NCBI GenBank assembly: GCA_021810045.1
Contig: JAJZJR010000001.1
Span: 186,001 to 250,000 of the forward strand
DNA length: 64,000 nt
Direction: 5' to 3'
DNA from: Thermoplasmata archaeon
GTDB taxonomy: Archaea; Thermoplasmatota; Thermoplasmata; Thermoplasmatales; Thermoplasmataceae
Shown here: piece by piece, positions 43,287 to 58,839 of the stretch
How positions within the stretch are numbered: the first letter of the stretch is position 1
How the letters are laid out: every line of letters begins with the position of its first letter
Program-made: the position numbers and the translations under genes
Notes under the pieces: model-generated
The model's input: the letters and a program-made list of their open reading frames with translations, nothing else
The model's database searches: none
What the model was told of the DNA's origin: nothing

Positions 43287-43326
43287 TCCAAAAGTCTCCT
43301 GCTCCCTTCCGGGATGCGACAAAAAT

Positions 43327-43566: not shown

Positions 43567-43578
43567 TGCAAAATAAAA

Positions 43579-43836: not shown

Positions 43837-43848
43837 AGCGACAAAAAA

Positions 43849-44436: not shown

Positions 44437-44480
44437 TTATGCCACTCCTGGTTCTCCTTCCGGAGAACGCAACAAAAAAT

Positions 44481-44792
44481 TCACCACCAGCCAAAGATTA
44501 GCGAATGGAACTCTGCCAGTGCCTGTTCATAATCTGAATCCAGTACGTTCCTGTACTGCCATCCTCTGTCAAAAAGTGCATACTGTGGCTCCTCCCCTAA
44601 CCCTTCCTTGATGGCCTTATACAATTCCCAGAATTTATGTTCGTCCTGATCCGCTTCCCAGAGGTTCCTGAACCACTCTTCATTTTCCAGAAGCTTATCC
44701 CAGGATTCCTTGCTGTACCCGAAAAAAGCCTTCTGGAAGTCGGTATAGTCGATCCTCTGGATTGCCATTACGCTCTCAATTCTGCTCTCCAT
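44481..44792 (-). CDS. Hypothetical protein
   Basis: 103 residues rich in Trp and Asp/Glu (DKLLENEEWFRNLWEADQDEH). ATG 44792 follows GTTGCC. Its stop is TGA, unlike most neighbours. Unknown. Confidence 0.5.
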   Translation of the reverse strand: MESRIESVMAIQRIDYTDFQKAFFGYSKESWDKLLENEEWFRNLWEADQDEHKFWELYKAIKEGLGEEPQYALFDRGWQYRNVLDSDYEQALAEFHSLIFGWW

Positions 44793-44805
44793 GGCAACAA
44801 AAAAA

Positions 44806-45030
44806 TTACTTGAGCAGTTTCATCAGGTTTTCCCTGCTCAAGCCAACCGATTTCATCAGGGAGTTCAATGTTCCTTTGTCAAGTTCGCTGTGATTGGGCA
44901 CAGATACAGACAAAGCATCTTCGGGACGTCTCAGAATTATGTGACTCCCTGTTTGATGTTCTTCCCTGAAGCCAATCTTTTTCAGAACTTTGATGAAATC
45001 CTTCCCGGAGATAATAGGAAGCTTAGGCAT
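44806..45030 (-). CDS. HicA-like mRNA interferase (toxin), copy 1
   Basis: 74 residues with the HicA double-stranded-RNA-binding-like fold: LPIISGKDFIKVLKKIGF, then GSHIILRRPE (the catalytic His lies in GSH) and a SVPNHSELDKGTLNSLMK end. It is expected to cleave mRNA and to be neutralised by the HicB partner, whose gene overlaps it by 8 bases. Order is antitoxin then toxin. Confidence 0.85.
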   Translation of the reverse strand: MPKLPIISGKDFIKVLKKIGFREEHQTGSHIILRRPEDALSVSVPNHSELDKGTLNSLMKSVGLSRENLMKLLK

Positions 45031-45292
45031 TTACCTCAATTTCCGTTTCTTCAGGAATTGGATCTCCATACTTTTTCTTGACCTCAAGAATGCCTTCCAG
45101 AGCCTCCCTAATGTTCTTCAATGCCTCTTCCCTGGTTTTCCCTTGGGAAACGCAACCCTTGACAGCCGGAACCGTGGCTACGATCCATCCATCTTCGCCG
45201 GGTTCCAGAACCACTCTGTACTTCAAGGTCATTGACTCTCCATTTCTATCTGCATATATACTCTTTTCCATTGTTTCGTTTTCCCGATTCAT
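45023..45292 (-). CDS. HicB-like antitoxin, copy 1
   Basis: 89 residues. The conserved HicB part (LKYRVVLEPGEDGWIVATVP, CVSQGKTREEALKNIREAL) begins at Met 45232; the first 20 residues (MNRENETMEKSIYADRNGES) include a TATA-like GAGTATATAT, so a shorter leaderless protein from 45232 is plausible. The pair looks complete. Very similar to copy 2 at 47881. Confidence 0.82.
   Translation of the reverse strand: MNRENETMEKSIYADRNGESMTLKYRVVLEPGEDGWIVATVPAVKGCVSQGKTREEALKNIREALEGILEVKKKYGDPIPEETEIEVNA
45244..45262 (-). promoter_or_regulatory. Internal promoter of hicB copy 1
   Basis: GAGTATATATGCAGATAG lies about 25 bases before the ATG at 45232. It resembles the promoter at 48104 (TATATATCCAGATAG) and those at 51976 and 53548. 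It would allow antitoxin production independent of the operon. Confidence 0.5.
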
Positions 45293-45305
45293 GGCAACAA
45301 AAAAA

Positions 45306-46253
45306 TTACTGCTCCATCCTTGGAGCTAATAGAAATTTAATTTCAGGCCGTTCATCCGCCATCTTGTCGGATGCCAGCTTGAATTCCGCAGTAAGCGGAT
45401 AATCGTTCTTGAAACTGGTCTTCACCTCATCCACGGTCTTCATTGCCTTGAACAATTTCAGGAGGTATTCCAGCGGGTAGCTGCTTCTTATGGGCTCATC
45501 GTCAGCACACACAATCTCCTTGATCATGTCTTTCGGGAAGTCAGCCTTGAATTCCCTGCTGTCGGCTATTGATTTCATTGTCAGTCCGTTTCTTGTAAGC
45601 TCGAAACGGATTGAATCTGAAACGTCTTCAGCACCCTTGAAAGACTCCCTCATTTCATAATGGCCCATTGTGAAACTGTTATTCGCCTCAATCTTCGGGA
45701 TCCTTGGCATTGTCACAACCGAAGGGTCCAGAAGCGTGTATTCCTTTACGAAAGGCCCGACGGATACAACTACCCTGTCCTTTGACCTTTCCAATGTAAC
45801 CAGGTCGTTCTTTGAACCTTTTGGGATGCTCTTTTTCCAGTCCTCCACGTCGAAGGCCCAGGTTGAAAGTTCGCCATCAAAGTGGTACTCTGAAAAGGCT
45901 GATTTTGGCATCTTCAATGCCAGCATAGCCACGTGTGCAGGGTCCACTGCAATAGCTTCTACCCCGTCAGGCCTGAACTGCAGCTTGACCTCAGTAACAA
46001 CCGTGTTAAAGAGTTCGAGCAGCTCCTTCAGCCTTGAGTAGGGTAAGCTAATCCTCCCTGGCGCATCTCCGGTCTCCGGTTCCTTCCTGGTTTCCTGTTT
46101 TGCTTCTGGAGTTTCCCTGGGCTCGTTCTGGCCCTCCACATGGACTTCCATAGTGGGCGTCTTCTTCCCCGCGTATTCTATTTCCTCCCTGGCAAATTCC
46201 GTCAGGGGTTTCGTTCTCCAGTATTCTTCTTCTATTTCTACCATATTTTTCAT
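45306..46253 (-). CDS. PCNA-like sliding clamp, copy 1
   Basis: 315 residues from ATG 46253. After about 65 disordered residues (TPEAKQETRKEPETG) a PCNA-type two-domain fold follows: GRISLPYSRLKELLELFNTVV, RPDGVEAIAVDPAHVAMLALKMP (the P-loop-like domain 1 pattern), and EIKFLLAPRMEQ at the end, where the PCNA C-terminus usually ends in a similar APR. Clamps slide on DNA and hold polymerase and other factors. RBS CCGGAG precedes it. Only about 200 residues are clamp-like. Confidence 0.85.
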   Translation of the reverse strand: MKNMVEIEEEYWRTKPLTEFAREEIEYAGKKTPTMEVHVEGQNEPRETPEAKQETRKEPETGDAPGRISLPYSRLKELLELFNTVVTEVKLQFRPDGVEAIAVDPAHVAMLALKMPKSAFSEYHFDGELSTWAFDVEDWKKSIPKGSKNDLVTLERSKDRVVVSVGPFVKEYTLLDPSVVTMPRIPKIEANNSFTMGHYEMRESFKGAEDVSDSIRFELTRNGLTMKSIADSREFKADFPKDMIKEIVCADDEPIRSSYPLEYLLKLFKAMKTVDEVKTSFKNDYPLTAEFKLASDKMADERPEIKFLLAPRMEQ

Positions 46254-46377
46254 GGCTCCGGTTCCCCTTTGCGGGGAACACAACATAAAAATGACCGCAT
46301 TCCAGGCAGGTCTTGCCAAGAATGTTCCCGAAAATTGTAGTTGTAGATTCAATGCATCCACAAATCGCACACTTCAT
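46048..46377 (-). CDS. Zinc-ribbon-like small open frame overlapping the clamp gene
   Basis: 109 residues in an open frame. The first 40 residues carry two Cys pairs (MKCAICGC and CLECGHFY), a plausible zinc ribbon. The remaining 70 residues overlap the clamp gene in another frame and look like shadow sequence. The T-tract box at 46285 is present, but the upstream frame has no stop there, unlike every other copy. A frameshift into the clamp frame would fuse the two. Confidence 0.35.
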   Translation of the reverse strand: MKCAICGCIESTTTIFGNILGKTCLECGHFYVVFPAKGNRSHEKYGRNRRRILENETPDGICQGGNRIRGEEDAHYGSPCGGPERAQGNSRSKTGNQEGTGDRRCARED

Positions 46378-46388
46378 GCAACAAAAAA

Positions 46389-46736
46389 TTAGGACACCAT
46401 GAGTAAATGTGCCTCATCCTGGTTTATCAAGGTTCCGTCAGAGAGTCTGTACTGCCTGTCCAGCCCATAATATGTGATGGACTTGATCATCTTTGGCTCC
46501 TTTGCAAAGATTGCCTTGAAAACTTTTCCATCCTTTTCCTGCCAGACTAAAGCCTGCTCGCTCCTGTCATAGACCTGCTTCAACCATGGTACCTGGTTAA
46601 GCCTCTCAACGGTATTCAGCTCCTTTGGGAGCTCCAGTTTCCGTTCCCTGGCCTTTCTTTCCCTGTCGAGGAGAATCCCTATGCAGGGACCCTCCACAGT
46701 TACGTTTGTTATCTTCTCTTCCTCCTGCTCCCCCAA
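46389..46736 (-). CDS. Hypothetical protein
   Basis: 115 residues with a Gln/Glu N-terminus, then KIKELPKELNTVERLNQVPWLK-type segments (short pieces only) and a beta-rich end. TTG start at 46736. Unknown. Confidence 0.5.
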   Translation of the reverse strand: MGEQEEEKITNVTVEGPCIGILLDRERKARERKLELPKELNTVERLNQVPWLKQVYDRSEQALVWQEKDGKVFKAIFAKEPKMIKSITYYGLDRQYRLSDGTLINQDEAHLLMVS

Positions 46737-46759
46737 TTTCCCGGAGGTGCAACAAAAAA

Positions 46760-47251
46760 TTAGCAGTAAAAGAACTGCCCTGCATAAGTTGCCAGGGCAT
46801 CCATTTCTTCCGAGTCTGCACCGAAATATTCAGTCCAGGGTGTTCCCCAGTCCTGGTATTCAATCCGTGCCCTCTCGGGCTCGTTGTGCGAATTCAATTC
46901 ACCGACAATCCTTACCGCAGGTCCACCTGTGCATAAGAGGATCTCGAATTCCTCAGGTTTAAGTTCCTCACCCGGACTTTGCCATCCGGATCGTACCTGA
47001 ACCGTTAGAGGATCTTCTGCGATCATCCTCTCTATTGCTTCTTCATCATGGTATTCTTCCCGCTCCTCTTCCGTAACTATGGTCTTTCCTGCCTCGTAAT
47101 GCAGGTTAAGCCCGTTGCAGATTTCTTCATCGGTGATTTCACATTCCTCGCCGCCAGTGCATTCAGAAGTGTGTTCCAGTCTTTTTACCATCTCAACAAT
47201 GCCTGCAAGCTGTGCTGCAGCCTGCGATCTTGCATGTTCATTTTCTTCCAA
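46760..47251 (-). CDS. Hypothetical acidic protein
   Basis: 163 residues, acidic (EEREEYHDEEAIERM). Contains a Cys-Gly-Gly segment (TSECTGGEECEITDEEICNG). TTG start at 47251 after a hairpin GTTCC/GGAAC. Unknown. Confidence 0.5.
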   Translation of the reverse strand: MEENEHARSQAAAQLAGIVEMVKRLEHTSECTGGEECEITDEEICNGLNLHYEAGKTIVTEEEREEYHDEEAIERMIAEDPLTVQVRSGWQSPGEELKPEEFEILLCTGGPAVRIVGELNSHNEPERARIEYQDWGTPWTEYFGADSEEMDALATYAGQFFYC

Positions 47252-47316
47252 AGTCTGTATTTTCTCACGTCCTGGTTCCCCTCATTTGAGAGGAACGCAA
47301 CAAAAAATTAAAAAAA

Positions 47317-47604
47317 TCAGTTTCTGGTTTCCAGTCTTGAAAGCCTTTCCTCGATTTCAGCAAATTTTTTGGCTGAATCGACTTTAACAAGGATCAGATC
47401 AATTTTGCCCTCGAGCTGGTCGAACCTGCTGTTGGTTACTTTCTCAAGAGCCCCAATCTTGATTTCCATAGCCTCGAACCTGGTGTTCACGTTCTTTTCC
47501 AGGCTCTCCACCCCGGCATCAATGGCCCTGATTTCGCCTTTCAGTTCTCCAATCTCGGGCATAAGAATGCTCCGGATCCATTTTCCTATGTTTACCACTC
47601 TCAT
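47317..47604 (-). CDS. Coiled-coil protein
   Basis: 95 residues, almost fully a coiled coil (GELKGEIRAIDAGVESLEKN, RFDQLEGKIDLILVKVDSAK). The N-terminus reads MRVVNIGKWIRSILMPEIG. Looks like a small fibre or scaffold-type protein. Unknown. Confidence 0.55.
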   Translation of the reverse strand: MRVVNIGKWIRSILMPEIGELKGEIRAIDAGVESLEKNVNTRFEAMEIKIGALEKVTNSRFDQLEGKIDLILVKVDSAKKFAEIEERLSRLETRN

Positions 47605-47663
47605 TCACCTATTCTTTTCAATGGATAAATAATTATCCAGTGTCCTTCCAGACACAACAAAAA

Positions 47664-47888
47664 TTACTTGAGCAGTTTCATAAGCTCGGTTCTGCTCAAA
47701 CCTGCATCCTTGATAAGACCGTTCAACGTTCCCTTGTCCAGTTCCTTGTGATCCGGAACGGATAACCTGAGTCCGTCTGTTTCCCTCTTGAGAATTATGT
47801 GGCTCCCGTTCTGCGATTTCATGATGAAGCCCATTTTGGTCAGGACCTTAGCGAGGTCTCTTCCCGATATCACGGGAAGCTTAGGCAT
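47664..47888 (-). CDS. HicA-like mRNA interferase, copy 2
   Basis: 74 residues, closely similar to copy 1 (LPVISGRDLAKVLTKMGF, GSHIILKRET, TGLSRTELMKLLK-type end). The GSH histidine is kept. It overlaps hicB copy 2 by 8 bases. Confidence 0.83.
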   Translation of the reverse strand: MPKLPVISGRDLAKVLTKMGFIMKSQNGSHIILKRETDGLRLSVPDHKELDKGTLNGLIKDAGLSRTELMKLLK

Positions 47889-48150
47889 TGATCACAACTT
47901 CCGTTTCTTCCGGAATGGGATCTCCGTCCTCTTTCATGTCCTCGATAATCGCCTGAAGTGCTTCAGTTATGTTCTTCAGGGCTTCTTCCCTGGTTTTCCC
48001 CTGGGACCAGCAGCCCTTGACCGCTGGCACGTGAGCCACGATCCAGCCGTCCTCTCCCGGCTCCAGAACCACTCTGTACTTCAGGCTCATTGAATCTCCA
48101 TTCCTATCTGGATATATACTCTTTTCCATTGTTCCGTTCTCACGATTCAT
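47881..48150 (-). CDS. HicB-like antitoxin, copy 2
   Basis: 89 residues with the same two-part design as copy 1 (MNRENGTMEKSIYPDRNGDS, then LKYRVVLEPGEDGWIVAHVP and CWSQGKTREEALKNITEAL). The TATA-like TATATATCCAGATAG at 48104 favours a start at Met 48090. The two hicAB pairs are about 2.9 kb apart. Confidence 0.8.
   Translation of the reverse strand: MNRENGTMEKSIYPDRNGDSMSLKYRVVLEPGEDGWIVAHVPAVKGCWSQGKTREEALKNITEALQAIIEDMKEDGDPIPEETEVVINA
48104..48120 (-). promoter_or_regulatory. Internal promoter of hicB copy 2
   Basis: TATATATCCAGATAG lies about 25 bases before Met 48090. It belongs to a recurrent promoter type in this element (TATATAYCCAGAYAG). Confidence 0.5.
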
Positions 48151-48167
48151 GGCAACAAAAAATTAGT

Positions 48168-49352
48168 TTAAATTCTGACTTTCTTGATCACGTCAAAGGT
48201 GTTCTTCTTTGGGGGCTTCAGCAGCATGTATACAAATGTGCCTCCCTCGTAGAAGGCTATTGGAATCAGCATCAAGGCCATCCAGATGGCATACTTCCTG
48301 TTGGTGTTGAAAACACCATACTCATAAATGGCCAGGGACATAACAAGGTTGTACACGCCCCCGATTGTGTAAAACAGGGGCAGTCTGGTCCCCAGCAATG
48401 CATCGATGAACCAGAATGTCATTCCGATGATTCCGGCCCATCCAACTGCATATCTGTACAGGATAAACGCCATTGCCTTTCTGTCAAGGCCATGTATGGT
48501 TTCCCTGTTGTTCATTATGCTGTAGGTCCATCTTCTCCTCTGCCTGTAAAAGTCCACCACACTCGTTGGTGGACTGATGTACACGTAATCAGGGATGTAC
48601 CCAAAGGTATATCCCCTGGCGGGCAGGCTAATGCCCATTATGAGATCCTCAGCGCCATATCCGCCGTAATCCCATCCAATTTCATGCTCCACGTCAGCCC
48701 TGATCACCAATCCCTCTCCGTGAATCAGTTTAGGCTTCCCCTTTTCGTTAAAATTCCTGCAGTATATCTCACAGTCAGACACTCTGATCATGTCTGCCAG
48801 GGTGCTCATGAGATGTATCCCGTAACCACGCAGCCTTATGCTGCCCTGTCCGGCATGGGTTTCCATTGTTTCAACAAATCTCACATAGGACTCATTCACA
48901 ACCGAATCGTCGTCAAGGTGGACAATGTAAGTTTCACTTCCATATCCAAGCCTGTGAAGGTATTCAATCCCATACTGCAGGGCCCTCATTTTCTTGAATG
49001 ATTCATTCCTTGTCCTGTACCCGAGGGGAACGACTATCTGCTTTGCCGAGTAGGCAAACCTGTCATATTCCTCCTTGAGCACATAAAGGTCAAGCTCTGT
49101 CCTGAAGGCTCTTACTTTCTTTATAATGTCTTCAACAACTTCCGGGTTCTGGCCGTTGGTAACAATCTCCACCAGGACTCTCCGTCCATCTGGCCTCTGT
49201 TTCCCAGGTTTGTTGAACCTGTGTACCCTTGCCTTAATCATGGCATATAAACTGAATGTTGTTATGGGGAAGTACATCACCATAAACATTCCCACTAATA
49301 TTTCTGCTAAATACGCAAAAATTCCTCCTGGCCGCTCTTCACGGCGCGACAA
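48168..49352 (-). CDS. Membrane glycosyltransferase, GT2 family
   Basis: 394 residues. A GT-A core has IVTNGQNPEVVEDIIKKVR, the DDD metal motif IVHLDDDSVVNESY, the acceptor site DYGGYGAEDLIMG, and the RQRRRW (QxxRW) end of processive GT2 enzymes. One N-terminal and about four C-terminal transmembrane helices follow. It probably builds a polysaccharide or glycoprotein glycan at the membrane. The precise start is unclear: AGGAGG precedes an in-frame ATT; TTG 49352 lies inside the T-tract box. Confidence 0.85.
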   Translation of the reverse strand: MSRREERPGGIFAYLAEILVGMFMVMYFPITTFSLYAMIKARVHRFNKPGKQRPDGRRVLVEIVTNGQNPEVVEDIIKKVRAFRTELDLYVLKEEYDRFAYSAKQIVVPLGYRTRNESFKKMRALQYGIEYLHRLGYGSETYIVHLDDDSVVNESYVRFVETMETHAGQGSIRLRGYGIHLMSTLADMIRVSDCEIYCRNFNEKGKPKLIHGEGLVIRADVEHEIGWDYGGYGAEDLIMGISLPARGYTFGYIPDYVYISPPTSVVDFYRQRRRWTYSIMNNRETIHGLDRKAMAFILYRYAVGWAGIIGMTFWFIDALLGTRLPLFYTIGGVYNLVMSLAIYEYGVFNTNRKYAIWMALMLIPIAFYEGGTFVYMLLKPPKKNTFDVIKKVRI

Positions 49353-49356
49353 AAAA

Positions 49357-49746
49357 TTACATCCTGTTCACGCGGCCCTTTTCCACCTCAAAGAAGTGGA
49401 AAGGCATGTTGCTGTAAACTTCCTCAAAAATGTCTTCCATCTTCACCCATTGGCCGTCTCCGTAGTCCGGAAGAAAAACAAATGCTTCCCCGGGATCCGT
49501 TGAGATTATCTCCTTGATGTTGGGGTATTCGTCAAATCCCCTGGAAGATATTTTCCTGGAATTCTTTTCCCACCTGTTCATCCGTGCGTGATCAAAGGAT
49601 GCCGCTGTACGTTTGGGAAACCTGTCGTCGAAGCTGAATTCAGCATCCGTTTCAGCAAATTTTCTCGGCTTCCTGAATGCAGTCTGCCCCGACTGTCTCT
49701 TCCTGGCTTCCTCTTCTTTCTTTTCCTGAATGGTTATTTCTCCCAT
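49357..49746 (-). CDS. Hypothetical protein
   Basis: 129 residues, charged, starting MGEITIQEKKEEEARKRQSG; ATG 49746 two bases after GTCGC. Unknown. Confidence 0.5.
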   Translation of the reverse strand: MGEITIQEKKEEEARKRQSGQTAFRKPRKFAETDAEFSFDDRFPKRTAASFDHARMNRWEKNSRKISSRGFDEYPNIKEIISTDPGEAFVFLPDYGDGQWVKMEDIFEEVYSNMPFHFFEVEKGRVNRM

Positions 49747-49758
49747 TGCGACAAAAAA

Positions 49759-50070
49759 TTACAATTCATGTGTTGGCGTATTTGTTGTCAGGATCTCCCT
49801 GCTTGCAGGGATCATGTGTTCGTTCAGTATGTGCTCGTCCCAGTCCTCTACGGGAAAGACCTTCTCACAATCCGTGTCAAATACATAGGCTCCGTCCGGG
49901 ACTCCCATCAGTGTAGCCCCAAGCAGCCTGTATTCATCATCGAAGATCTCATAGTTTTCAGGGGAGAATTCCTTGAATCTCACCCTTGATTTCTGGCGTC
50001 GCCTGTGATCCCACTTGCCAACCCTTGTCTTCTTTATGTTTGCATCAAAATCAAACCCGGTGTCTTCCAT
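49759..50070 (-). CDS. Hypothetical protein
   Basis: 103 residues with N-terminal MEDTGFDFDANIKKTRVGKW and a C-terminal proline/threonine part. ATG 50070 after GTTGCGGTGAATAA. Unknown. Confidence 0.5.
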   Translation of the reverse strand: MEDTGFDFDANIKKTRVGKWDHRRRQKSRVRFKEFSPENYEIFDDEYRLLGATLMGVPDGAYVFDTDCEKVFPVEDWDEHILNEHMIPASREILTTNTPTHEL

Positions 50071-50099
50071 TTATTCACCGCAACAAAAAATTAAAAAAT

Positions 50100-50909
50100 T
50101 TAGTTTGGGACTTTCGGACTTACGAGGTAATACCCCTTTATCCTGTATTCGTGCTGCCTGTTCTTTACCGGCAGCCTTACGCTCATCTTCATGGGTTCGT
50201 TTGTCTTGAACCTCACCAGGAGCTCTGCATCCTGCATCAGTTTCATGGTCTTCAGCAGGAAATCAGTCTGAAACAGGGCTTCCTCGCCCTCCGGGAAAGT
50301 GTTCTTCTCCCCCGTCACTATGATTTCCTCTGTCTTGTCGTCCCTTTTCCCTGATAGCTGCAGAACCACCTGGCCTTTTGCTTTTATCGTCTTTAGGCGT
50401 ATGTCCTCTGCGTCCATGTCGTCCAGATTCTTTATGGCTGTGTACAGAGCTTTTCCATCAACTCTCATACCATAGGGCATGTTCAGCTCAGGGATGAATA
50501 TCTCATTGGGAGAATAAACCGTCCCAATCTCTTTTGTGTGTCCGTCCCCGGCTTCAACAGTGATCTTTTCCCCGGCCTTCCTGAATTTCAGCATTGCCCC
50601 CGATCCAAGGTCGTTTGTTACGCTCCTGAAATCGTCAGGGTCAATTGCAAAGGTCTGCTCCCCATCGTATTCAAAGAACTCAAGGTCTTTCTTGTTCAGG
50701 AAAAATATCCCGATTCTTGTCTTGTACTGGTCAGCTGCGTAAAACCTCACGCCGCTGCCGCTAACATTCATGATTACCTCTTCAGCGTCCATTGCATACG
50801 GGAAGAACTTCATGATCTTCCTGAGTGCAGCCTGTTCCACAACGAAGGCTGCGTTCTCTCCTGTTGCTGTCCTTTCCATTTCCGGTACTACTTCTGTAGT
50901 TTCCACCAT
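50100..50909 (-). CDS. PCNA-like sliding clamp, copy 2
   Basis: About 269 residues from ATG 50909. Clamp features: AFVVEQAALRKIMKFFPYAMDAEEVIMNVSGSG, VRFYAADQYKTRIGIFF, the inter-domain AIDPDDFRSVTNDL and a C-terminal EYRIKGYYLVSPKVPN. It differs clearly from copy 1. Two clamps on one element could act as a homo- or heteromeric ring. Confidence 0.75.
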   Translation of the reverse strand: MVETTEVVPEMERTATGENAAFVVEQAALRKIMKFFPYAMDAEEVIMNVSGSGVRFYAADQYKTRIGIFFLNKKDLEFFEYDGEQTFAIDPDDFRSVTNDLGSGAMLKFRKAGEKITVEAGDGHTKEIGTVYSPNEIFIPELNMPYGMRVDGKALYTAIKNLDDMDAEDIRLKTIKAKGQVVLQLSGKRDDKTEEIIVTGEKNTFPEGEEALFQTDFLLKTMKLMQDAELLVRFKTNEPMKMSVRLPVKNRQHEYRIKGYYLVSPKVPN

Positions 50910-50954
50910 TTTTTCAAATCCTGGCCTCCCGCTCTCCGGGAGACGCAACAAAAA

Positions 50955-51134
50955 TTACAGGTCCTCGTATGGACCGTTCTGCTCGTGTATGTATGCGGGT
51001 CTGCCCTCGTAGTCCTGAGTTCTTCCGAGGTCCATGACGTCATAATCAACCACCCTGACCTTTACTCCTGCAGGCACACTGACGATGTTGGGCATTCCGC
51101 TTTCTATTTCAATTACCACTTCGTTTTCATCCAT
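50955..51134 (-). CDS. Small hypothetical protein
   Basis: 59 residues starting MDENEVVIEIESGMPNIVSV and containing GVKVRVVDYDVMDLG, a pattern of small all-beta phage and plasmid proteins (P-V-R-V-V-D-Y-D). ATG is preceded by GGGGAGC and a GAGA-loop hairpin. Function unknown. Confidence 0.55.
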   Translation of the reverse strand: MDENEVVIEIESGMPNIVSVPAGVKVRVVDYDVMDLGRTQDYEGRPAYIHEQNGPYEDL

Positions 51135-51182
51135 GTTAATCAGCTCCCCTGTCTCCAGGGACGCAACATATTTTCGTATGTG

Positions 51183-51226
51183 CTAAAACGCAAAAAGGGC
51201 GACCCCCCTTGCGGAAGGCCGCCCTT
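51183..51226 (-). terminator. Hairpin terminator at the end of RNA stretch 1
   Basis: AAGGGCG and CGCCCTT pair around a GCAA-containing inner arm, followed by TTTTTGCGTTTTA, the same tail as at 41203. It closes the noncoding stretch above it before the clamp operon begins. Confidence 0.72.
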
Positions 51227-51610
51227 AATGCATTGGAAAGACCATTCCTCACAGGTTCCATTTGGGTTTCCCCTCCTGGTCATATCCTGCAATTCCTGAT
51301 CCCGATGGAAGATCAGATGTGCATCCATAGTGCACACATTAGAGTCTGCTTTGTGTCTCATGGTAGACGGACTCCATTAGTCCGGCCGTAACACTCCACA
51401 GGTGCGTCAGGGAACGTGAATCCCCTGATGCTAATGAAATGGAGCCTCATGCGGCTCTATTCCCTCACTTCTGCTCTTAGCGACACGGAGAGGTGCTACC
51501 TCTCCTTGCTTCTTTTTTCAGCTTATGGTTGCCTCACATGTCAGTGTTTCAATCCACACGCCACAAAAAGGCGTGACTGTTTGGTTCACATCTCAGTAAG
51601 CCCATAACGC
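51227..51610 (-). ncRNA. Structured RNA stretch 1
   Basis: About 380 bases without a convincing gene but with a row of perfect hairpins: CACGCC/GGCGTG at 51557-51575, GAGAGGT/ACCTCTC at 51488-51504, a 5-base core GAGCC/GGCTC at 51442-51457, TCAGGG/CCCTGA at 51407-51428, GGACT/AGTCC at 51369-51383. It ends at the terminator 51183. Minus orientation is inferred from the terminator and neighbours. The CRISPR-like repeat lies in it. Confidence 0.6.
51546..51577 (-). CRISPR. Solitary CRISPR-repeat-like unit, type I-C layout
   Basis: On the minus strand the 32 bases read GTCACGCC, TTTTTGT, GGCGTG, TGGATTGAAAC. That is the I-C pattern GTCRC, a short hairpin, then GTGGATTGAAAC as the 3' handle. No second repeat follows at spacer distance, and no cas gene is in the window. 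It lies inside structured RNA stretch 1, just below the T-tract box at 51610. It could be a viral solitary repeat unit (RNA anti-CRISPR) or a remnant of a mini-array. Confidence 0.65.
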
Positions 51611-51639
51611 AACATAATTATGTTCAGGCATCGGGCAAC

Positions 51640-51960
51640 TACATCCATTGTGTAGTTCAGCAGCCGTTCAGGATCGCTGTGTCGTTCTGGACTGTCCATT
51701 GCAGGCCGGAACAGTAAACCTCAGCTCTCCCAATTTCCCTTTACCAAACGGTAAAGGGCCTGCTCGCCCGTCCGAAGACAGGCTCCCTTGCAATCCGTCA
51801 AGTTCACGGACATCCTTTCGGATGAGAGTTTTATGCCCATCGTAACACTCTTCAGTGCTTCCTCCCTCGTGGCCCTCCCCACAGTTTCCTGCGAGTCCGG
51901 TGCGGGCTTTTCTCTTTGCGACATTGGGCATGCTTGCCATCAGGCTTTCACTCCCAAGCT
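51640..51960 (-). ncRNA. Structured RNA stretch 2
   Basis: A promoter (see 51976) leads into hairpins CATCC/GGATG with GAAA loop at 51811-51824, TCCGT/ACGGA at 51794-51810, a 7-pair arm with UUCG loop at 51766-51783 (a G-U pair forms only on the minus strand), CCCTTTACC/GGTAAAGGG at 51737-51758, and AACTACA/TGTAGTT at 51637-51657. Two overlapping open frames (90 and 67 codons) start here, one after GGAGTGAAAGCCTGATGG, so a short protein is not excluded. Confidence 0.55.
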
Positions 51961-51969
51961 ACATGTCAA

Positions 51970-51995
51970 CTTCCCTGTCTGGGTATATAAGTCTT
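51970..51995 (-). promoter_or_regulatory. TATA promoter of RNA stretch 2
   Basis: AAAAGACTTATATACCCAGACAG on the minus strand, split here as AAAAGACTTATATACC and CAGACAG, matches the recurrent TATATAYCCAGAYAG type. It is followed at 25 bases by sequence opening RNA stretch 2. Confidence 0.6.
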
Positions 51996-52018
51996 TTCCT
52001 CTTTTTTCCCTACAAAAA

Positions 52019-52360
52019 TTATTCTGCGAGGTATGGAACAACCAGTTCATCGTGTTTCCACTCTTTCTTTGCCACTTTCAGCTTGCTCTCCTGGTTACCT
52101 GAATCCTTGAAAACCATATTGGTTGCAACCACATACCTGTAATTGCTCCCTGGCTCTGTCAGATTGACCAGGCTCAAGAATGGCATTTCCTTGAGTGCCC
52201 TGACCTGCTTTGCGGTCAGTTTCATCCCGATGTAATGAATCTGTATTGCTTCGAATCCACCCTCTATCTCATTTATTTCGAGCTGCCACCCGGTGGCTGT
52301 TGATGCCCTTGAGGTGGCAAATGCTCTCATCTTGTTGGCAAATGCTCTTGCTCCAAACAA
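52019..52360 (-). CDS. Hypothetical protein
   Basis: 113 residues; TTG start after AAGGAGTGAAACTAA. N-terminal basic helix (MFGARAFANKMRAFATSR) then an alpha/beta part (LEINEIEGGFEAIQIHYIG). Unknown. Confidence 0.5.
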   Translation of the reverse strand: MFGARAFANKMRAFATSRASTATGWQLEINEIEGGFEAIQIHYIGMKLTAKQVRALKEMPFLSLVNLTEPGSNYRYVVATNMVFKDSGNQESKLKVAKKEWKHDELVVPYLAE

Positions 52361-52404
52361 TTAGTTTCACTCCTTATAAAGCCGGGACTTTTCAGTCCCC
52401 GCAA

Positions 52405-52671
52405 CTAAAAATTAATCTGCAGGAGCTCATAAATTCTGTCCGCTTCACAGGAATCGCTCTGTCCGAACCATTCAATCTTATGGTGTTTTGTCCCGTCCTG
52501 GTCCACGAGATCAGCTGCTACAATCCTGAGATTGTGCAATCCCGGAACCTCAATCGTTGACGGGGATCCTAAAATCTTCCTGAGTTCGTCCCAGCAGATT
52601 TCCCTTTTCAGGTTGACTCTTATGAGCTCTCTTTCCTCATTCTCTCCGATTACAAATCCTTGTATTTCCAT
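52405..52671 (-). CDS. Hypothetical protein
   Basis: 88 residues (MEIQGFVIGENEERELIRVN). ATG follows GGAGTGAAATTTTCA. Unknown; beta-rich with WFGQSDSCEADRI near the end. Confidence 0.5.
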   Translation of the reverse strand: MEIQGFVIGENEERELIRVNLKREICWDELRKILGSPSTIEVPGLHNLRIVAADLVDQDGTKHHKIEWFGQSDSCEADRIYELLQINF

Positions 52672-52689
52672 TGAAAATTTCACTCCAGA

Positions 52690-53012
52690 CGCTTATGCGT
52701 GACATTGGTGTTCATCCTTATGCCCTGACTTCCCTTGCGGGTCATTGGCAGTTCATAAGGACGGGATTGCCCTTTCGGCGCAACCCCGGAAGTTGGCTGA
52801 ATCCATCGTACAGCCAGGTGCTCTTCCTGGACAGAAGTAGTTCTCAGCTCTCCATTGGAGCATCGATAGTCTTCTGCCCGTTCCGGGCATTGCCATTAAA
52901 GGCACCACGCTCCCTTGCGGAAGCGACTTCCACTCTCTCGAGCAACAGTGGACATGTGATGGATCTCAAATCAACCTTAACTATCGGAGTTTTCTGATCG
53001 TTTTCCCTCATC
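52690..53012 (-). ncRNA. Structured RNA stretch 3
   Basis: About 320 bases between a T-tract box and the next gene. Helices: CGATAGT/ACTATCG at 52864-52870 with 52980-52986 closing a 120-base domain; CCTTATG/CATAAGG at 52716-52722 with 52754-52760; a GAAA-loop arm at 52763-52787 and GCAA-loop arms at 52732-52741 and 52908-52925; TGCCCG/CGGGCA at 52875-52889; TGCC/GGCA at 52891-52904; CCAGG/CCTGG at 52814-52830. The GNRA loops form only on the minus strand. Confidence 0.6.
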
Positions 53013-53023
53013 CACTACAAAAA

Positions 53024-53173
53024 TTATTTTGCACGAACCATTACAAATCTCACAGTTCTCCATTCCAGTGAACTGGTGATGTTGTTAAGGTCCCGCGCTA
53101 TCGATTCAGGTCTCTCCCTGAGGTCTTTTTCAGTGTAATCCGACTGAAATAGAAATTCGAATCTGTCAAACAC
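53024..53173 (-). CDS. Small hypothetical protein
   Basis: 49 residues with GTG start nine bases after GGAGTG; it contains FDRFEFLFQSDYTEKDLRER. Its stop runs into a TTTTTGTAG version of the T-tract box. Unknown. Confidence 0.45.
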   Translation of the reverse strand: MFDRFEFLFQSDYTEKDLRERPESIARDLNNITSSLEWRTVRFVMVRAK

Positions 53174-53194
53174 TTAATTTATCACTCCTTGCCT

Positions 53195-53535
53195 TGTTAG
53201 GCACTACATAAATCCCTCTTTTCCACGATAATTTTATGTTTCGACCCCCAAGAACCCATCCGCTGTTTCCAGCGTTATTAGAAGGTCGGTCCACCCGTAC
53301 GGGTTGGAGTAGTTTAAGGGCTTAATCTGGCAGGTCCATCAGGACACGGGTAGTTAAGCCCCCCGTACAAGCACAGCCCTGCGGAGATCACAGGCTGATC
53401 ATCAGGCGTATTCTTTTTGAAAGGAGATAAGGGGGTTTTCCGCCTCTTTCAAGGCATCTCCGGTCACCCCTTACCCAGCGTAACTTAATCGCAACATAGG
53501 GGCACATAGCCCCTGAAAATAGGCTTTTCCAGCAA
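53195..53535 (-). ncRNA. Structured RNA stretch 4 with predicted pseudoknot
   Basis: Downstream of the promoter at 53547. AGGGGC/GCCCCT (53498-53514) is a hairpin. GGAGAT and ATCTCC (53423-53428, 53456-53461) interleave with TTGAAA and TTTCAA (53417-53422, 53447-53452), a pseudoknot. GTACGGG/CCCGTAC (53297-53303, 53362-53368) encloses GGGCTTAA/TTAAGCCC (53318-53325, 53354-53361), which encloses GTCC/GGAC. CGCTG/CAGCG at 53261-53274 has a GAAA loop on the minus strand. No known RNA class was recognised. Confidence 0.62.
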
Positions 53536-53546
53536 ATATATGTCTC

Positions 53547-53564
53547 TGTCTGGGTATATAAAGG
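53547..53564 (-). promoter_or_regulatory. TATA promoter of RNA stretch 4
   Basis: CCTTTATATACCCAGACAG on the minus strand; a transcript start is expected near 53530. The same type is at 51976 and a shorter form (TCTTATACCCAGACAG) at 53803 drives the 53616 gene. Confidence 0.62.
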
Positions 53565-53615
53565 TTTTGCCAATATACCCTCTTGAACCCCTTTAATGGG
53601 GCATCTGCGACGAAA

Positions 53616-53792
53616 TTATACACGGTAATCGATGGAATGGCCCTGGTGTTTGGCCTCAAAATCCATCAAATCCGTTATTGAATAACTCTTTTTGGTGCCC
53701 TTGCAGGTATTGCAATAAGCAAACCTCAGTTTAGGTTGTATTTTTCCTCTGGCTTCAAGCATCTGAAGCTTCAAAAGGTATTGTGAACCCAT
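53616..53792 (-). CDS. Small zinc-finger-like protein
   Basis: 58 residues: MGSQYLLKLQMLEARGK, then CNTC and after about 17 residues H-x-x-H (HQGH). This C2H2-like spacing suits a small DNA-binding zinc finger. ATG lies about 25 bases after CTTATACCCAGACAG, so it is leaderless. Its stop is followed by TTTCGTCGC. Confidence 0.55.
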   Translation of the reverse strand: MGSQYLLKLQMLEARGKIQPKLRFAYCNTCKGTKKSYSITDLMDFEAKHQGHSIDYRV

Positions 53793-53945
53793 AAGTCAAC
53801 CGTTCTGTCTGGGTATAAGAATGTTGCTTTTCCATGAACCGGGAAATTGGAACTAATGACTTAATTTGTCTAATGAAATGGCCGAAGCAACTGAGCCGGA
53901 GTGCGGAATACAATTAAGTATAGTTTTGCACCTAACATATTAGGT
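53793..53945. other. Divergent promoter region
   Basis: The minus-strand promoter TCTTATACCCAGACAG at 53803 serves the zinc-finger gene. A plus-strand TATA-like AATTAAGTATAG at 53910 lies about 30 bases before ATG 53946. Confidence 0.45.
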
Positions 53946-54356
53946 ATGATGAGCCCTGGGATTTTTGCCCGAACCCTTGAAGACCAACTTAGACGAGTGA
54001 AAATACAATTTAGTGAAATGACCGGATCATCCAAGTATTTTGACATAAGTCCTGAGGAATTACTTAACAATGCCAAGGTTTGGTTCCTAAGAACAATATT
54101 AAATGCTGAACTCATGGAAGACGACATGGTGGTGTCAGCCATTGATTATGTTTCCAATGCAGCCATTGAAAGGATAAAGACTCAGCCTTACAATTTGAGG
54201 TTTCCCGCAGTTGCGTGGATAACTTGCAGCCTCGATAAGGAGCAGATAGATTCAATTTTTGGATTCACATTTTTTAACAAGATTTCCGAAGTGGCTAGGC
54301 AATTCAATCTAATGGACCAAGGTAGTACTTTTTTCCCTGAAAAAAGGAGGAGATGA
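53946..54356 (+). CDS. Hypothetical protein
   Basis: 136 residues from MMSPGIFARTLEDQLRRVKI, helical. Probably leaderless. Overlaps the next gene by 4 bases. Unknown. Confidence 0.55.
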   Translation: MMSPGIFARTLEDQLRRVKIQFSEMTGSSKYFDISPEELLNNAKVWFLRTILNAELMEDDMVVSAIDYVSNAAIERIKTQPYNLRFPAVAWITCSLDKEQIDSIFGFTFFNKISEVARQFNLMDQGSTFFPEKRRR

Positions 54357-55327: not shown

Positions 55328-55617
55328 TCCTGACCAATAGGATCTTTAACCCTTTCCTTCGGTATCTTCAAATGGAAGCATTTTTCTTTCTTCTCAAATT
55401 TTTCCCTGAATGGGCAATGTCAAATTCCCGTTGAAGGAACTGCCCCTTATTGCATTCAAAAACTTATTACCAAGCATGTAAATACTCCTTGGGGGCGGGC
55501 ATGTTTGCCATTAGGCTTTCACTCCAAAGCTTTTGGCTTTCACTCCTCCCGCCCCTGCGTTCTTTGTTTTAGAATTTCCTGATTTTTGGTACTGTTGTAC
55601 TCGTTTCAAAGGAAAAA
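55328..55617. repeat. Gene-free stretch with two inverted repeats and the GVKA box
   Basis: CCTGATTTTT/AAAAATCAGG (10-base arms, 55571-55618) overlaps the stop of the DUF1643 gene and may terminate it. GGGGCGGG/CCCGCCCC (about 55489-55560) encloses two copies of GGAGTGAAAGCC. The box recurs at 32955, 51945 and, as GGAGTGAAAGTC, at 40563. GGTACTGTTGTACT at 55586 is the copy of 40727. Confidence 0.5.
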
Positions 55618-56115
55618 TCAGGAGATTGGTTTTATTGGAACCGGCTTCAGCCCCGAATTCAGGTATAAGGGATGACCAGGTTGTCCATCTTTAGTCTGGA
55701 CAAGGCATTTGGCTCCCGGAATTAACTCGAGAACTTCTTTTCCCCTGTCCAGATGCTCACCATGGAAACCCCATGCAGCAATGGTCAGGTCTGCCTTGTG
55801 ATAGATATCCAATATGGCCTGGTTATTGTCCGGGCCAATTGGGTCTTCCACAGTGTATAAGAGAGAAGGATCTGTGCTCTTGAGTGCAAATATATTACCA
55901 ACTTCAAGAGTCCCGTATCCCCATCTTTTAGCATAGTCGATGCACCTTCTGACAGTTGCATCAAGGATCCGGGAATCTGCCTTTGAGGGATTCAACATTA
56001 TGAAAGCCAGAACTGGCTTATCTGCATCCCACATTCTCCACAGCCTGTAGCGGTACCTCTTGTCTGGGCTGAAGATGGCTCCTGCCCTGTTATCGAATTG
56101 CTGGAGGTCAAACAT
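55618..56115 (-). CDS. DUF1643 family protein
   Basis: 165 residues matching DUF1643: RYRYRLWRMWDADKPVLAFIMLNPSKAD, DATVRRCIDYAKRWGYGTLEVGNIFAL and LTIAAWGFHG. Members appear in phages and bacteria with no known activity. Confidence 0.85.
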   Translation of the reverse strand: MFDLQQFDNRAGAIFSPDKRYRYRLWRMWDADKPVLAFIMLNPSKADSRILDATVRRCIDYAKRWGYGTLEVGNIFALKSTDPSLLYTVEDPIGPDNNQAILDIYHKADLTIAAWGFHGEHLDRGKEVLELIPGAKCLVQTKDGQPGHPLYLNSGLKPVPIKPIS

Positions 56116-56116
56116 C

Positions 56117-56347
56117 TCAGTGAATACCGGTCCAGAGCAAGAGGCCGCGGACGTCTATGGCAATGAGAATGAGGTTGATTCCAAGTATTGGATACAATTT
56201 AAGGATGATTCCGTAAACTACCCAGATCAGGGATCCTATGATTGCAGCTACCCATCCAAGGTAGCTGGAATTTCCGAGGATGAGGAGTGAAATGGCGGTG
56301 AAGGCCATTCCGGTGTATCCAATCATGTCCGTCCTTTTGAAATTCAC
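56117..56347 (-). CDS. Small three-helix membrane protein
   Basis: 76 residues with three hydrophobic segments (MIGYTGMAFTAISLLIL, WVAAIIGSLIWVVYGIIL, INLILIAIDVRGLLLW). It resembles SemiSWEET-like sugar transporters only in length and helix number. Membrane role otherwise unknown. Confidence 0.5.
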   Translation of the reverse strand: MNFKRTDMIGYTGMAFTAISLLILGNSSYLGWVAAIIGSLIWVVYGIILKLYPILGINLILIAIDVRGLLLWTGIH

Positions 56348-56361
56348 TTCATCCGCTCCAT

Positions 56362-56514
56362 TCAGTTTTCCTCCTGGGATTCTGCCATAACAAAATCATA
56401 CAGGATCTTCCCTGTTTCATCAATAAGATCACCTATAATTTTCTGGTTGGACTTGACACCCAACAGTTCATTCGGGGATACTATGTTCCGGTATTTTGCC
56501 ATTTCAGTCCTCAT
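56362..56514 (-). CDS. Small hypothetical protein
   Basis: 50 residues (MRTEMAKYRNIVSPNELLGV), with a second possible start at 56502. AGGGAGG precedes. Unknown. Confidence 0.4.
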   Translation of the reverse strand: MRTEMAKYRNIVSPNELLGVKSNQKIIGDLIDETGKILYDFVMAESQEEN

Positions 56515-56611
56515 TCCTCCCTCTCATCAATTCATCAATAAAGCCAGCTACTTCCCTCAAACAGCCCGCATGCCAGATCGTATCAGAAAGTGGCTGCAAG
56601 GTATATTTTCT

Positions 56612-56737
56612 TTAGGGTCCATGCCATCTGATTGTGGCAATGTGAACCCCTGTCAGCCTGTTCTTGACTTCGTAAACACTAGTCTTTGGCAGTTCTTTCA
56701 GGAGATTGAAGACCAGGTAGTTCTCCGGCTTTTTCAA
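56612..56737 (-). CDS. Small hypothetical protein
   Basis: 41 residues: TTG start overlapping the stop of the upstream winged-helix gene, after AGGAGG. Ends with VHIATIRWHGP. A longer frame to 56902 exists, but the tail is the part that fits coupling. Confidence 0.4.
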   Translation of the reverse strand: MKKPENYLVFNLLKELPKTSVYEVKNRLTGVHIATIRWHGP

Positions 56738-57030
56738 GACACGAGCCTCCTGTCCTCTTTCCTCACGTACTGGTACTGGATTATCCTGCCAGCCCGTCCT
56801 TTTCCTTCGATCAGAATCGGTTTCAGGATGCCATAATCTGCCATTTTCCTCAGGTGCTTGCCTATTCTCACCTTGTTCTTTTCTTTGAACTTCCTGGCAC
56901 ACTGGTCAATAGTAAACCTCTGTGCAGAACTCGCATATCTTTCAAGCCTTTCCTGAAAATCGTCTTCCACAAAGTCAAAGACATATCCTCTGAGGGATTC
57001 GCTGACGCTGATAGAGGCACGTTCAACCAT
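56734..57030 (-). CDS. Winged-helix-like DNA-binding protein
   Basis: 98 residues. The middle has SAQRFTIDQCARKF and KVRIGKHLRKMADYGILKP, a helix-turn-helix with a wing rich in Arg (EGKGRAGRIIQYQYV). Likely a transcription factor of the operon. Confidence 0.6.
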   Translation of the reverse strand: MVERASISVSESLRGYVFDFVEDDFQERLERYASSAQRFTIDQCARKFKEKNKVRIGKHLRKMADYGILKPILIEGKGRAGRIIQYQYVRKEDRRLVS

Positions 57031-57371
57031 CAGTTCACTTCCTTGAGGACTTGAGAATTGCTCTGTTCAAACTCCGACCTTGATGGCCACCATCTTACTT
57101 TGACAGAACCTATCGTATACTCTGAAGCTGGCCTGTTACTGCCCCATCCCCCGACCTTGATGCTCTTGACGATGCACAGGTGATCCCTTGGCCTGGTGAT
57201 GGGAAAGTCGATGTACCCGTCTGCGAATTTAAGGTGCAGGGAACCGCCGCTGACTACGGTCAATTCTCCCTCCCTGAACTGTGATTTCAGGTCCTCAATG
57301 CCCTTTACGTTTGGGAGCCGTTCTCTTAGGCGAAGCATAAGGTGTTCAGAACCAACCACGTCCACAATCAT
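57030..57371 (-). CDS. Hypothetical protein
   Basis: 113 residues from MIVDVVGSEHLMLRLRERLP. Its ATG overlaps the stop of the next upstream gene (ATGA). Beta-rich end. Unknown. Confidence 0.5.
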   Translation of the reverse strand: MIVDVVGSEHLMLRLRERLPNVKGIEDLKSQFREGELTVVSGGSLHLKFADGYIDFPITRPRDHLCIVKSIKVGGWGSNRPASEYTIGSVKVRWWPSRSEFEQSNSQVLKEVN

Positions 57372-57766
57372 GCAGAACTGGCCCCTTTGAGGGGTTTTTC
57401 CCCGTAGAGCAGGATTCCTATGTCCAGGTACAATAGCATGTGTTCCTTGCATATCACTCCCTTTTCCCCGAAGGTATGCCCTTCGTTCGCGCATCCAGCA
57501 ACCCCGCAAATCTGCTCGTTTTGGGAGTCTTTCCCGGTCTGGGCAAGATCATTGAGGCTGGAGAGCTGCTTCCGGATCTCATCCTTCAGGTCCTCAACTC
57601 TCTGCCTGACCGGCATAAGGTATGGATCTGCTTCATTTTCCCAGTTCTTGGTCTTACGCAACGGATTGAGAATGTTTCCCGGAATGGTTGTTTTCCAAAA
57701 TCTGTTGGAATAAGAGAGCATGCGGTTGAGCCACCGGTCAAGATATCTGTGTTTCATTGGATTCAT
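57368..57766 (-). CDS. Hypothetical protein with Cys pair
   Basis: 132 residues, basic helical N-terminus (MKHRYLDRWLNRMLSYSNRF), later a CGVAGCANEGHTFGEKGVICKEH cysteine-histidine cluster (in pieces under 20: CGVAGCANEG, HTFGEKGVICKEH) that could bind zinc. ATG overlaps the exonuclease stop. Confidence 0.5.
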   Translation of the reverse strand: MNPMKHRYLDRWLNRMLSYSNRFWKTTIPGNILNPLRKTKNWENEADPYLMPVRQRVEDLKDEIRKQLSSLNDLAQTGKDSQNEQICGVAGCANEGHTFGEKGVICKEHMLLYLDIGILLYGEKPLKGASSA

Positions 57767-58305
57767 CAGAATTCCTCCAGCAGTATCTTGAGACACTGTG
57801 CCGTCTTCCTTGCGCCGTTGAGTGCGTTGTGCGGATAGGTTTCCGGCTTTACCCCGAGGTATTCGCAGACTCCTCTCAGTCCAGTCCCCTGTCCTCGCTT
57901 TCCTACCTTAGCCACAAATACCGAATATAGGTCAAGATAGTGGAAGTCAAAATTGGGAATGGTTGTCCTGTCTATCTTTGCTTTCTCATATGACCAGTTG
58001 ATGAAGCCGGCATCAAAATGCGTGTTAAATCCTCCCAGATAATGCCTCGGGGAGTAATTTTCTGCCAGCAGGATCCAGCTGTTGAAGTGTCTCATGGCGT
58101 CATAGGTTGAGGTCTCGATATGCTGCAGATACTCTCTTGTGTAGCCATTGACTTCCAGTGCCTGATCCGATATCTCTGCCCCATCTGCGGGCTGCATCTC
58201 TATGTAGAAATCCTTTTCCTGGTCTTCATACAGGACAGCCCCTATGCTTACAAGGGCATGCCTGTATGGCTCCAGTCCTGTTGTTTCACAATCAATTATT
58301 ATCAA
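57766..58305 (-). CDS. DnaQ-like 3'-5' exonuclease
   Basis: 179 residues of the DEDDh family: ExoI IIIDCETTGLEPYRH (Asp and Glu), ExoII FNTHFDAGFI (Asp), ExoIII HNALNGARKTAQC. At the last position the family has H-x-A-x-x-D; here the residue after HNALN is Gly, so the fourth metal ligand seems missing. TTG start after AAAAGGAGTGAAATAA. Might proofread or degrade host DNA; may be weak or inactive. Confidence 0.82.
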   Translation of the reverse strand: MIIIDCETTGLEPYRHALVSIGAVLYEDQEKDFYIEMQPADGAEISDQALEVNGYTREYLQHIETSTYDAMRHFNSWILLAENYSPRHYLGGFNTHFDAGFINWSYEKAKIDRTTIPNFDFHYLDLYSVFVAKVGKRGQGTGLRGVCEYLGVKPETYPHNALNGARKTAQCLKILLEEF

Positions 58306-58311
58306 ATTATT

Positions 58312-58839
58312 TCACTCCTTTTTTAGGGCCTTTGTGCAGCCCTCTATCATCTCATTTGCCTGGTCAAATGACAGCTTCTTCAGCTCTTCATCGGTCAAGC
58401 GGTGGGTTTTCCTGATGCGAAGAGCCTTCAGGTGGTTTAACTGGCTCTGCTGTATGGGTCCTGAAAAGGCTGGCATCTTGGCAGGTTCCTGTTCCGGTTC
58501 CTTTTGGTTTTCAAGTTCAGATGCCTTTTCTGAAGTTGGGGGATCGGTTGCCTCCTTAGCTTCTGCCAGGGGCTTGTGGAACTCTGCCCTCTTCACTTCA
58601 GTGCTTTCAGATACCACATACCTGGCCTTCATGTCACTGCCCATTCGCACAAGGTTGATCACCACAGTAACGTCATTTAGGCCATCAAGCAAGCCCTGGA
58701 CTTCAATGCTTGAATAGTTCCCAACAGGGCTGAACATGATTGTTTCTGCCCTCCTGACATTGAATTTCCTGTCCGTTTCAAGGAAATGGCCCTCAACGAT
58801 CTTCACCACGTCACTAAAGGATACGCCAGTGGGATTCAT
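58312..58839 (-). CDS. Hypothetical protein
   Basis: 175 residues from ATG 58839, with a two-part shape: an alpha/beta N-terminus (MNPTGVSFSDVVKIVEGHFL), a disordered middle (EPEQEPAKMPAFSGPIQQ) and a C-terminal helical part (HRLTDEELKKLSFDQANEM). Its end AAAAAGGAGTGA is the ribosome site of the exonuclease gene. Confidence 0.5.
   Translation of the reverse strand: MNPTGVSFSDVVKIVEGHFLETDRKFNVRRAETIMFSPVGNYSSIEVQGLLDGLNDVTVVINLVRMGSDMKARYVVSESTEVKRAEFHKPLAEAKEATDPPTSEKASELENQKEPEQEPAKMPAFSGPIQQSQLNHLKALRIRKTHRLTDEELKKLSFDQANEMIEGCTKALKKE

Follow-up and report, generated by a model that had tools for sequence, protein, structure and literature searches.

What is a single CRISPR repeat, set apart from any array and any cas gene, doing in an archaeal mobile element, and is it a CRISPR repeat at all? 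The sequence in question is a 32-mer in the window, that is, in the whole 64,000-nucleotide stretch of Thermoplasmata DNA analysed here.

A lone repeat of type I-C form

The minus strand at 51546-51577 reads exactly GTCACGCCTTTTTGTGGCGTGTGGATTGAAAC, 32 nt that begin with GTCRC, form a central hairpin and end in GTGGATTGAAAC, the layout of a type I-C repeat. The sequence-only reading that drew attention to the site was thus right about its exact sequence and also about its likeness to type I-C, since length, GTCRC, hairpin and handle are all as in the I-C arrays of relatives. The repeat and its parts are:

51546-51577, minus strand: solitary type I-C-form CRISPR repeat, 32 nt (exact sequence; form shared with I-C array repeats of relatives and other species)
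51557-51577, minus strand: the first 21 nt of the repeat, which form its stem-loop with CACGCC/GGCGTG as stem and TTTTTGT as loop (the 32-mer folds at -10.2 kcal/mol)
51546-51556, minus strand: 11-nt handle UGGAUUGAAAC (sequence; 11-nt 5' handle of Cas5d in type I-C, PMC5965380)

In type I-C, Cas5d leaves an 11-nt 5' handle and a 21-nt 3' handle (PMC5965380), and the 32-mer, which splits into 21 + 11 nt with its stem-loop ending at nucleotide 21, has this very cleavage geometry. Its loop, TTTTTGT, fails to extend the stem, unlike the loops of most true arrays.

With up to three mismatches permitted, GTCACGCCTTTTTGTGGCGTGTGGATTGAAAC is found at this one site only, both in the window and in the whole host genome (G000; 2,258,164 bases or 2.26 Mb, 99.9% complete). 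Neither 100-nt flank holds a second decayed repeat (best local identity 50%) or any trace of a spacer boundary, no leader-like sequence was recognised at the repeat and no cas genes were found in the window, so that its description as solitary and without cas genes can stand. The site is therefore neither a type I-C array, which has two or more repeats with spacers, nor a mini-CRISPR array with one or two spacers between repeats; a host-array remnant with neighbouring repeats was also considered and set aside, as the flanks hold none. What the locus does share with published solitary repeat units (SRUs) is its place on a mobile element, an intergenic position (no convincing gene runs over it), an identity of at least 90% to a known repeat over at least 90% of its length and flanks free of partial repeats. 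The best-matching known repeat, from JAGGAD010000036 (L064), is 90.6% identical over its full length of 32 nt; the match amounts to 40.1 bits when scored against the repeats collected here, compared with a cut-off of at least 41.1 that SRUFinder sets for its own library of 17,823 repeats.

Type I-C arrays are present in the same archaeal family, namely in G013 (57 copies of the 32-nt repeat GTCGCATCCCGCAGGGATGCGTGGATTGAAAC), G015 (21 copies of the 32-nt GTCGCACCCTTCACGGGTGCGTGGATTGAAAC) and G072 (two exact copies of the 32-nt GTCACATCCCGTAGGGATGTGTGGATTGAAAC). In G015 the type I-C operon is complete (Cas1c, Cas4, Cas7c, Cas8c, Cas5c, Cas3), with Cas5c at L016:5867-6592, and G013 matches I-C Cas1c, Cas7c and Cas8c; single or degenerate I-C repeat copies occur in G034 and G052. 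The search for I-C arrays in related genomes that had been proposed for this site was thus successful, cas operons included, and the objection that relatives might have no I-C-like repeat falls. The arrays of G013, G015 and G072 resemble our 32-mer in length, GTCRC start, hairpin and GTGGATTGAAAC handle, but they have up to 57 repeats, and cas operons in G013 and G015, where our site has one repeat and no cas genes, and the stem sequence differs (at best 23/32 identical). Among 84,980 species genomes, GTCACGCC-N4-10-GGCGTGTGGATTGAAAC picks out 32 stretches, most of them multi-copy arrays with repeats of mostly 32 nt, and in IMG/VR the same pattern is found on three contigs, solitary on L095 and in two copies each on L094 and L096.

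Some of these sites merit a remark of their own. L095 (IMGVR_UViG_3300037882_001495) carries, near 219-250, one I-C repeat with a stem of this form, which is likely a solitary repeat unit; the pairs of I-C repeats on viral contigs L094 (near 6902) and L096 (near 10562) are likely mini-arrays. At L025:3322-3353 (G034:C93) a single I-C-form repeat, GTCACATCCCATAGGGATGTGTGGATTGAAAC, lies near a resolvase gene and may be either a remnant or a solitary repeat unit; no Cas1 or Cas8c was detected in G034.

The RNA and the element around the repeat

The 32-mer lies within about 790 nt without convincing genes (51176-51966), and the features of this stretch and of the element around it are:

51176-51966, minus strand, 5' end approximate: ncRNA-1, ~790-nt conserved structured noncoding RNA containing the repeat (fold z-score, G021 homologue, covariation)
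51975-51990, minus strand: promoter motif TTATATACCCAGACAG of ncRNA-1, TATA-type, with A-rich GGAAAAGA just upstream (exact motif in the window only before ncRNA-1 and ncRNA-3)
51184-51228, minus strand: terminator hairpin and T-run of ncRNA-1 (sequence; conserved in G021)
51602-51607, minus strand: UUAUGG, 5' half of the stem that supports the repeat arm; it reads CUGUGG in G021 (two compensatory changes against G021)
51523-51528, minus strand: CCAUAA, 3' half of the same stem; it reads CCACAG in G021 (two compensatory changes against G021)
52690-53010, minus strand: ncRNA-2, a noncoding stretch that lies between the other two RNAs (conserved in G001 and G021)
53228-53545, minus strand: ncRNA-3, second conserved structured RNA (homologues 91% identical in G001, 80% in G021; TTATATACCCAGACAG promoter motif at 53546-53561)
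31847-62891, no strand, extent approximate and right end not fixed: integrative element carrying the RNAs (integrase left, HTH right, synteny, att-like repeat)

ncRNA-1 has a fold z-score of -5.1 against shuffles and a homologue in the related genome G021 that is 68% identical over ~670 nt. The consensus fold of the two comprises 172 pairs, 29 of them compensatory (1-8 when partners are slid, 14.1 +/- 2.8 in column shuffles), at an energy of -179.3 against -113.5 +/- 6.4 in column shuffles. The promoter motif TTATATACCCAGACAG, with up to two mismatches, has four matches in the window, two of them exact, where 0.08 are expected; the core of the motif precedes both RNAs in G021 as well, and ncRNA-3 in G001. 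At the 3' end of ncRNA-1 the hairpin is followed by TTTTTGCGTTTT. Rfam covariance models gave no match at E up to 1 in 50000-54000 or in the G021 homologue, so that at this threshold the RNA belongs to none of GOLLD, ROOL, OLE or the other Rfam families, and alignment to a known RNA family, by which the segment might have been explained away, was not seen. Fold, covariation, promoter motif, terminator and lack of an Rfam match, taken together, make it very probable that ncRNA-1 is a noncoding RNA in its own right, dedicated and conserved. The sequence-only reading had placed the repeat in an RNA stretch between a T-tract box and a terminator; promoter, terminator and RNA stretch are real features, and what has to be revised is the nature of the transcript, as the repeat is predicted to be one arm of a ~790-nt structured RNA rather than a free small RNA.

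Further homologues of ncRNA-1 were sought widely, and G021 is the only one among 200 relatives (BLAST); a covariance model of the 3' domain found none beyond it in 117 genomes of the order, and DNA patterns in IMG/VR and distant BLAST in phages and plasmids returned none, nor was ncRNA-1 detectable in the IMG/VR relative L097. Matches to GAGTGTTACGATGGG in IMG/VR were discarded as relatives since those read are coding coincidences, and weak covariance-model matches at G000:C19 and L043:995-1116 turned out to be similar terminators. A terminator style, stem-CCCTTTTTGCRTT, is in fact common to window 51184-51206, L043:987-1009 and L114:270-305, and is also found on another host contig. ncRNA-2 and ncRNA-3 are structured-RNA-like and have no Rfam match either; each of the three seems to be a conserved structured RNA not described before.

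How the repeat is held in ncRNA-1 can be judged from G021. The stem under the repeat arm covaries between the two homologues and the stretch GGGCTTACTGAGATGTGA, just inside its 5' side, is identical in both; on top of this shared stem sits the 32-mer in G000 and, in G021, a hairpin that is shorter and unrelated. We infer that the repeat caps a conserved arm and is specific to this lineage, in the way an added module would be. The G001 copy, the third one of the element, lies on a contig that stops about 700 bp short of ncRNA-1. The idea that the G021 RNA might likewise hold a copy of G021's own CRISPR repeat was dropped, its array repeat being different and without any resemblance found. In a fold of the 94-nt arm the repeat stem is ~95% formed; in longer single-sequence folds this drops to 15-30%, with much of the handle paired. 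These longer folds also break the covarying stem and are therefore unreliable at the repeat arm, and access to the repeat within folded ncRNA-1, as far as such models tell, is in doubt.

The element itself begins with an integrase (31847-32830), encodes a MoxR-type ATPase, PCNA (45306-46370), HicB-like antitoxins, a glycosyltransferase and an exonuclease and has a MerR/excisionase-like HTH gene at its right end. Synteny links its genes at 41367-50951 to G021 (about 35-66% identity) and its genes at 55618-62891 to G001, where identity is mostly 73-95%; a 22-nt att-like repeat lies at 31845-31866. For one conserved protein (46760-47251) IMG/VR offers a 56% relative, on a contig where a terminase and a portal-like protein are encoded as well. 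The element had been called viral-type: an integrative mobile element it is, but no capsid, portal or terminase genes were seen among the element proteins scanned, and it may be a virus or a plasmid. A padloc scan of ten proteins returned no known defence family (anti-CRISPR proteins are outside its scope), and spacers from the arrays of relatives gave no convincing protospacer in the element. Next to it, 20319-31866 carries D5-type primase and HNH genes between two copies (20371-20392, 31845-31866) of a 22-nt segment from the tRNA-Pro 3' end and is taken to be a second integrated element adjoining the one studied.

Probable CRISPR origin and possible role

The 32-mer could in principle be an ordinary peripheral hairpin and bulge of ncRNA-1, unconnected to CRISPR. 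Several observations are in keeping with this: the arm differs between homologues and G021 lacks the motif, type I-C is absent from the host, and the motif was picked by a reader out of a long sequence. Moreover, an ncRNA-2 hairpin at 52904-52927 on the minus strand (GTCGCTTCCGCAAGGGAGCGTGG) aligns with the 5' part of I-C repeats at a score of 14, the same score that the I-C repeats of relatives reach against ncRNA-1. The latter exceeds the maximum of 13 in 300 dinucleotide shuffles, and the score of the ncRNA-2 hairpin was reached in 3/300. This hairpin is conserved in three elements, including those of G001 and G021 (GTCAC/GTGTGG in G021), and lacks the ATTGAAAC handle. It follows that these RNAs can give rise to hairpins that look like the 5' portion of an I-C repeat and that a hairpin alone is weak evidence; it is the exact handle that carries the case. 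The ncRNA-2 hairpin may reflect chance or a second mimic of the I-C repeat.

Against coincidence, GTCRC-N15-GTGGATTGAAAC is expected in only 1.7e-5 copies in the window (both strands, dinucleotide model) even before a stem is demanded, a figure that holds per window and, like our other chance estimates, weakens if the window was picked after many had been read. Furthermore, the 12-mer GTGGATTGAAAC was read at 23 sites outside arrays in related genomes, never with GTCRC at the right distance, and both the 32-nt frame and the 21/11 split are exact. Dinucleotide model, shuffles and 12-mer background thus make chance unlikely as the whole explanation; we regard coincidence as improbable, though not negligible, and the 32-mer as likely CRISPR-derived.

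Its present host, on the other hand, has no detectable I-C system. Cas8c is absent from G000, from G021 and from the genus (two of 77 family genomes have it), Cas3 gave nothing above cut-off in G000, and the sole Cas1 of G000 belongs to a casposon-like locus about 38 kb outside the window. A match to a local host repeat, from which support had been hoped for, was hence not to be had: a host lacking I-C offers no repeat for the 32-mer to match, and a host of the cognate subtype, usual for Racr although not strictly required, is missing here. It also means that the repeat, if it acts, acts in other hosts. The casposon-like locus (G000:C41:142000-150000; L013:7622-14807) comprises, besides Cas1 (413 aa), one HTH and one HNH gene and a protein of 883 aa that has no Pfam match and by eye has the look of a family B DNA polymerase.

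For such other hosts we tentatively prefer, at somewhat less than even confidence, that the 32-mer is also acting as a decoy. By analogy with RacrIC1 and RacrIF1, the solitary I-C repeat on a large element RNA would work like an RNA anti-CRISPR and engage Cas5c of I-C hosts. A lone I-C repeat, RacrIC1, can inhibit I-C and protect phage, and most of the effect of RacrIF1 is owed to its stem-loop on the upstream side of the cut (PMC10651486). In a cell with an I-C system, ncRNA-1 would be made from its own promoter and bound by Cas5c, which would probably cut after repeat nucleotide 21. This would yield a ~400-nt 5' piece ending in a Cas5c-bound hairpin and a ~380-nt 3' piece with a correct crRNA handle at its start and no useful spacer, and Cas proteins would be pulled into non-productive complexes, as with RNA anti-CRISPRs; transcription, binding, cutting and inhibition are all inferred. 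In favour of a decoy, the repeat has I-C form, is solitary, lies in a structured conserved RNA with a promoter and is missing from the G021 homologue, and I-C occurs in related hosts. Its weak points are the single instance, the host without I-C, a score (40.1 bits) just below the 41.1 set for another library and the diverged loop. A wider version, in which ncRNA-1 is a scaffold with an exchangeable arm that in some lineages mimics the CRISPR repeat of hosts met by the element, making it a large RNA anti-CRISPR with further roles for its other arms, strikes us as rather doubtful.

A passive origin is less probable still. The repeat might be a piece of a host I-C array or viral mini-array, gained by recombination and left without its spacers, and with a host now lacking I-C, a diverged loop and lone or decayed I-C repeats in G034 and G052 as well, such decay is conceivable. 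Neither flank, however, has a traceable second repeat or spacer boundary, a search of 100 relatives gave no other match to the 34 nt that come after the repeat, and the repeat sits exactly on a conserved arm of a structured RNA. We see little prospect that the element instead exploits Cas5c of I-C hosts as a processing enzyme, splitting ncRNA-1 into two working pieces with no inhibition of CRISPR: Cas5d geometry fits (PMC5965380) and the predicted cut after 51557 falls near the middle of ncRNA-1, within one arm, but ncRNA-1 must be able to fulfil its basic role uncut, as the element is maintained in G000, which lacks I-C, and the G021 homologue has no site. Most improbable of all is a spacer trap, at which host Cas1-Cas2 inserts spacers, or a guide against another element, since in spite of the mini-arrays and stand-alone repeats of archaeal viruses (PMC6858448) and the two-copy arrays on IMG/VR contigs, the site has no recognised leader-like sequence and no second repeat, and its 34-nt pseudo-spacer finds no other match in 100 relatives.

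Relation to known repeats and large RNAs

Returning to the decoy, its closest published counterparts are SRUs and Racr, especially RacrIC1 (PMC10651486), which likewise combine a lone intergenic repeat on a mobile element with a promoter, no cas genes and, for RacrIC1, subtype I-C. As solitary repeats acting as RNA anti-CRISPRs are thus already in print, the locus is not an undescribed system as such, contrary to what the sequence-only reading proposed. Published RacrIF1 is a small RNA and RacrIC1 the partner of an acr gene, 11 nt downstream (PMC10651486); here, by contrast, the repeat, a putative decoy, is an arm of a ~790-nt conserved structured RNA, on an archaeal element and in a host without I-C. 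Stand-alone repeats and mini-arrays of archaeal viruses (PMC6858448) also place CRISPR repeats without cas genes on archaeal mobile elements; that system is from Sulfolobales and not I-C, and its mini-arrays have one or two spacers, with leaders in SPV1 and SPV2, where we see one repeat, no spacer and no recognised leader. As to the RNA, GOLLD and ROOL (PMC12286853) are, like ncRNA-1, long and elaborately folded noncoding RNAs of mobile elements whose function is unknown. ncRNA-1 differs in being archaeal and, compared by Rfam models only, has no detectable homology to them at E up to 1. We found no report in the literature of a lone repeat inside a large RNA; the kind (lone repeats on mobile elements) is known, and the setting seems new.

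Lone phage CRISPR repeats have recently been shown to act as RNA anti-CRISPRs, and GOLLD and ROOL are without known function. If the decoy reading is true, an RNA that joins both kinds would open the function of at least one large RNA to direct testing. It would also hint that RNA anti-CRISPRs aimed at type I-C exist in archaea, and it would give reason to look through other large element RNAs for embedded repeat mimics.

A minor observation concerns the start of ncRNA-1, near which a 35-nt element, GGAGTGAAAGCCTRATGGCAARCATGCCC, lies at 51926-51960 on the minus strand. It is found again, 91% identical, at an intergenic site of the element (55497-55531, minus strand) and is listed also at G001:C17:32378-32412.
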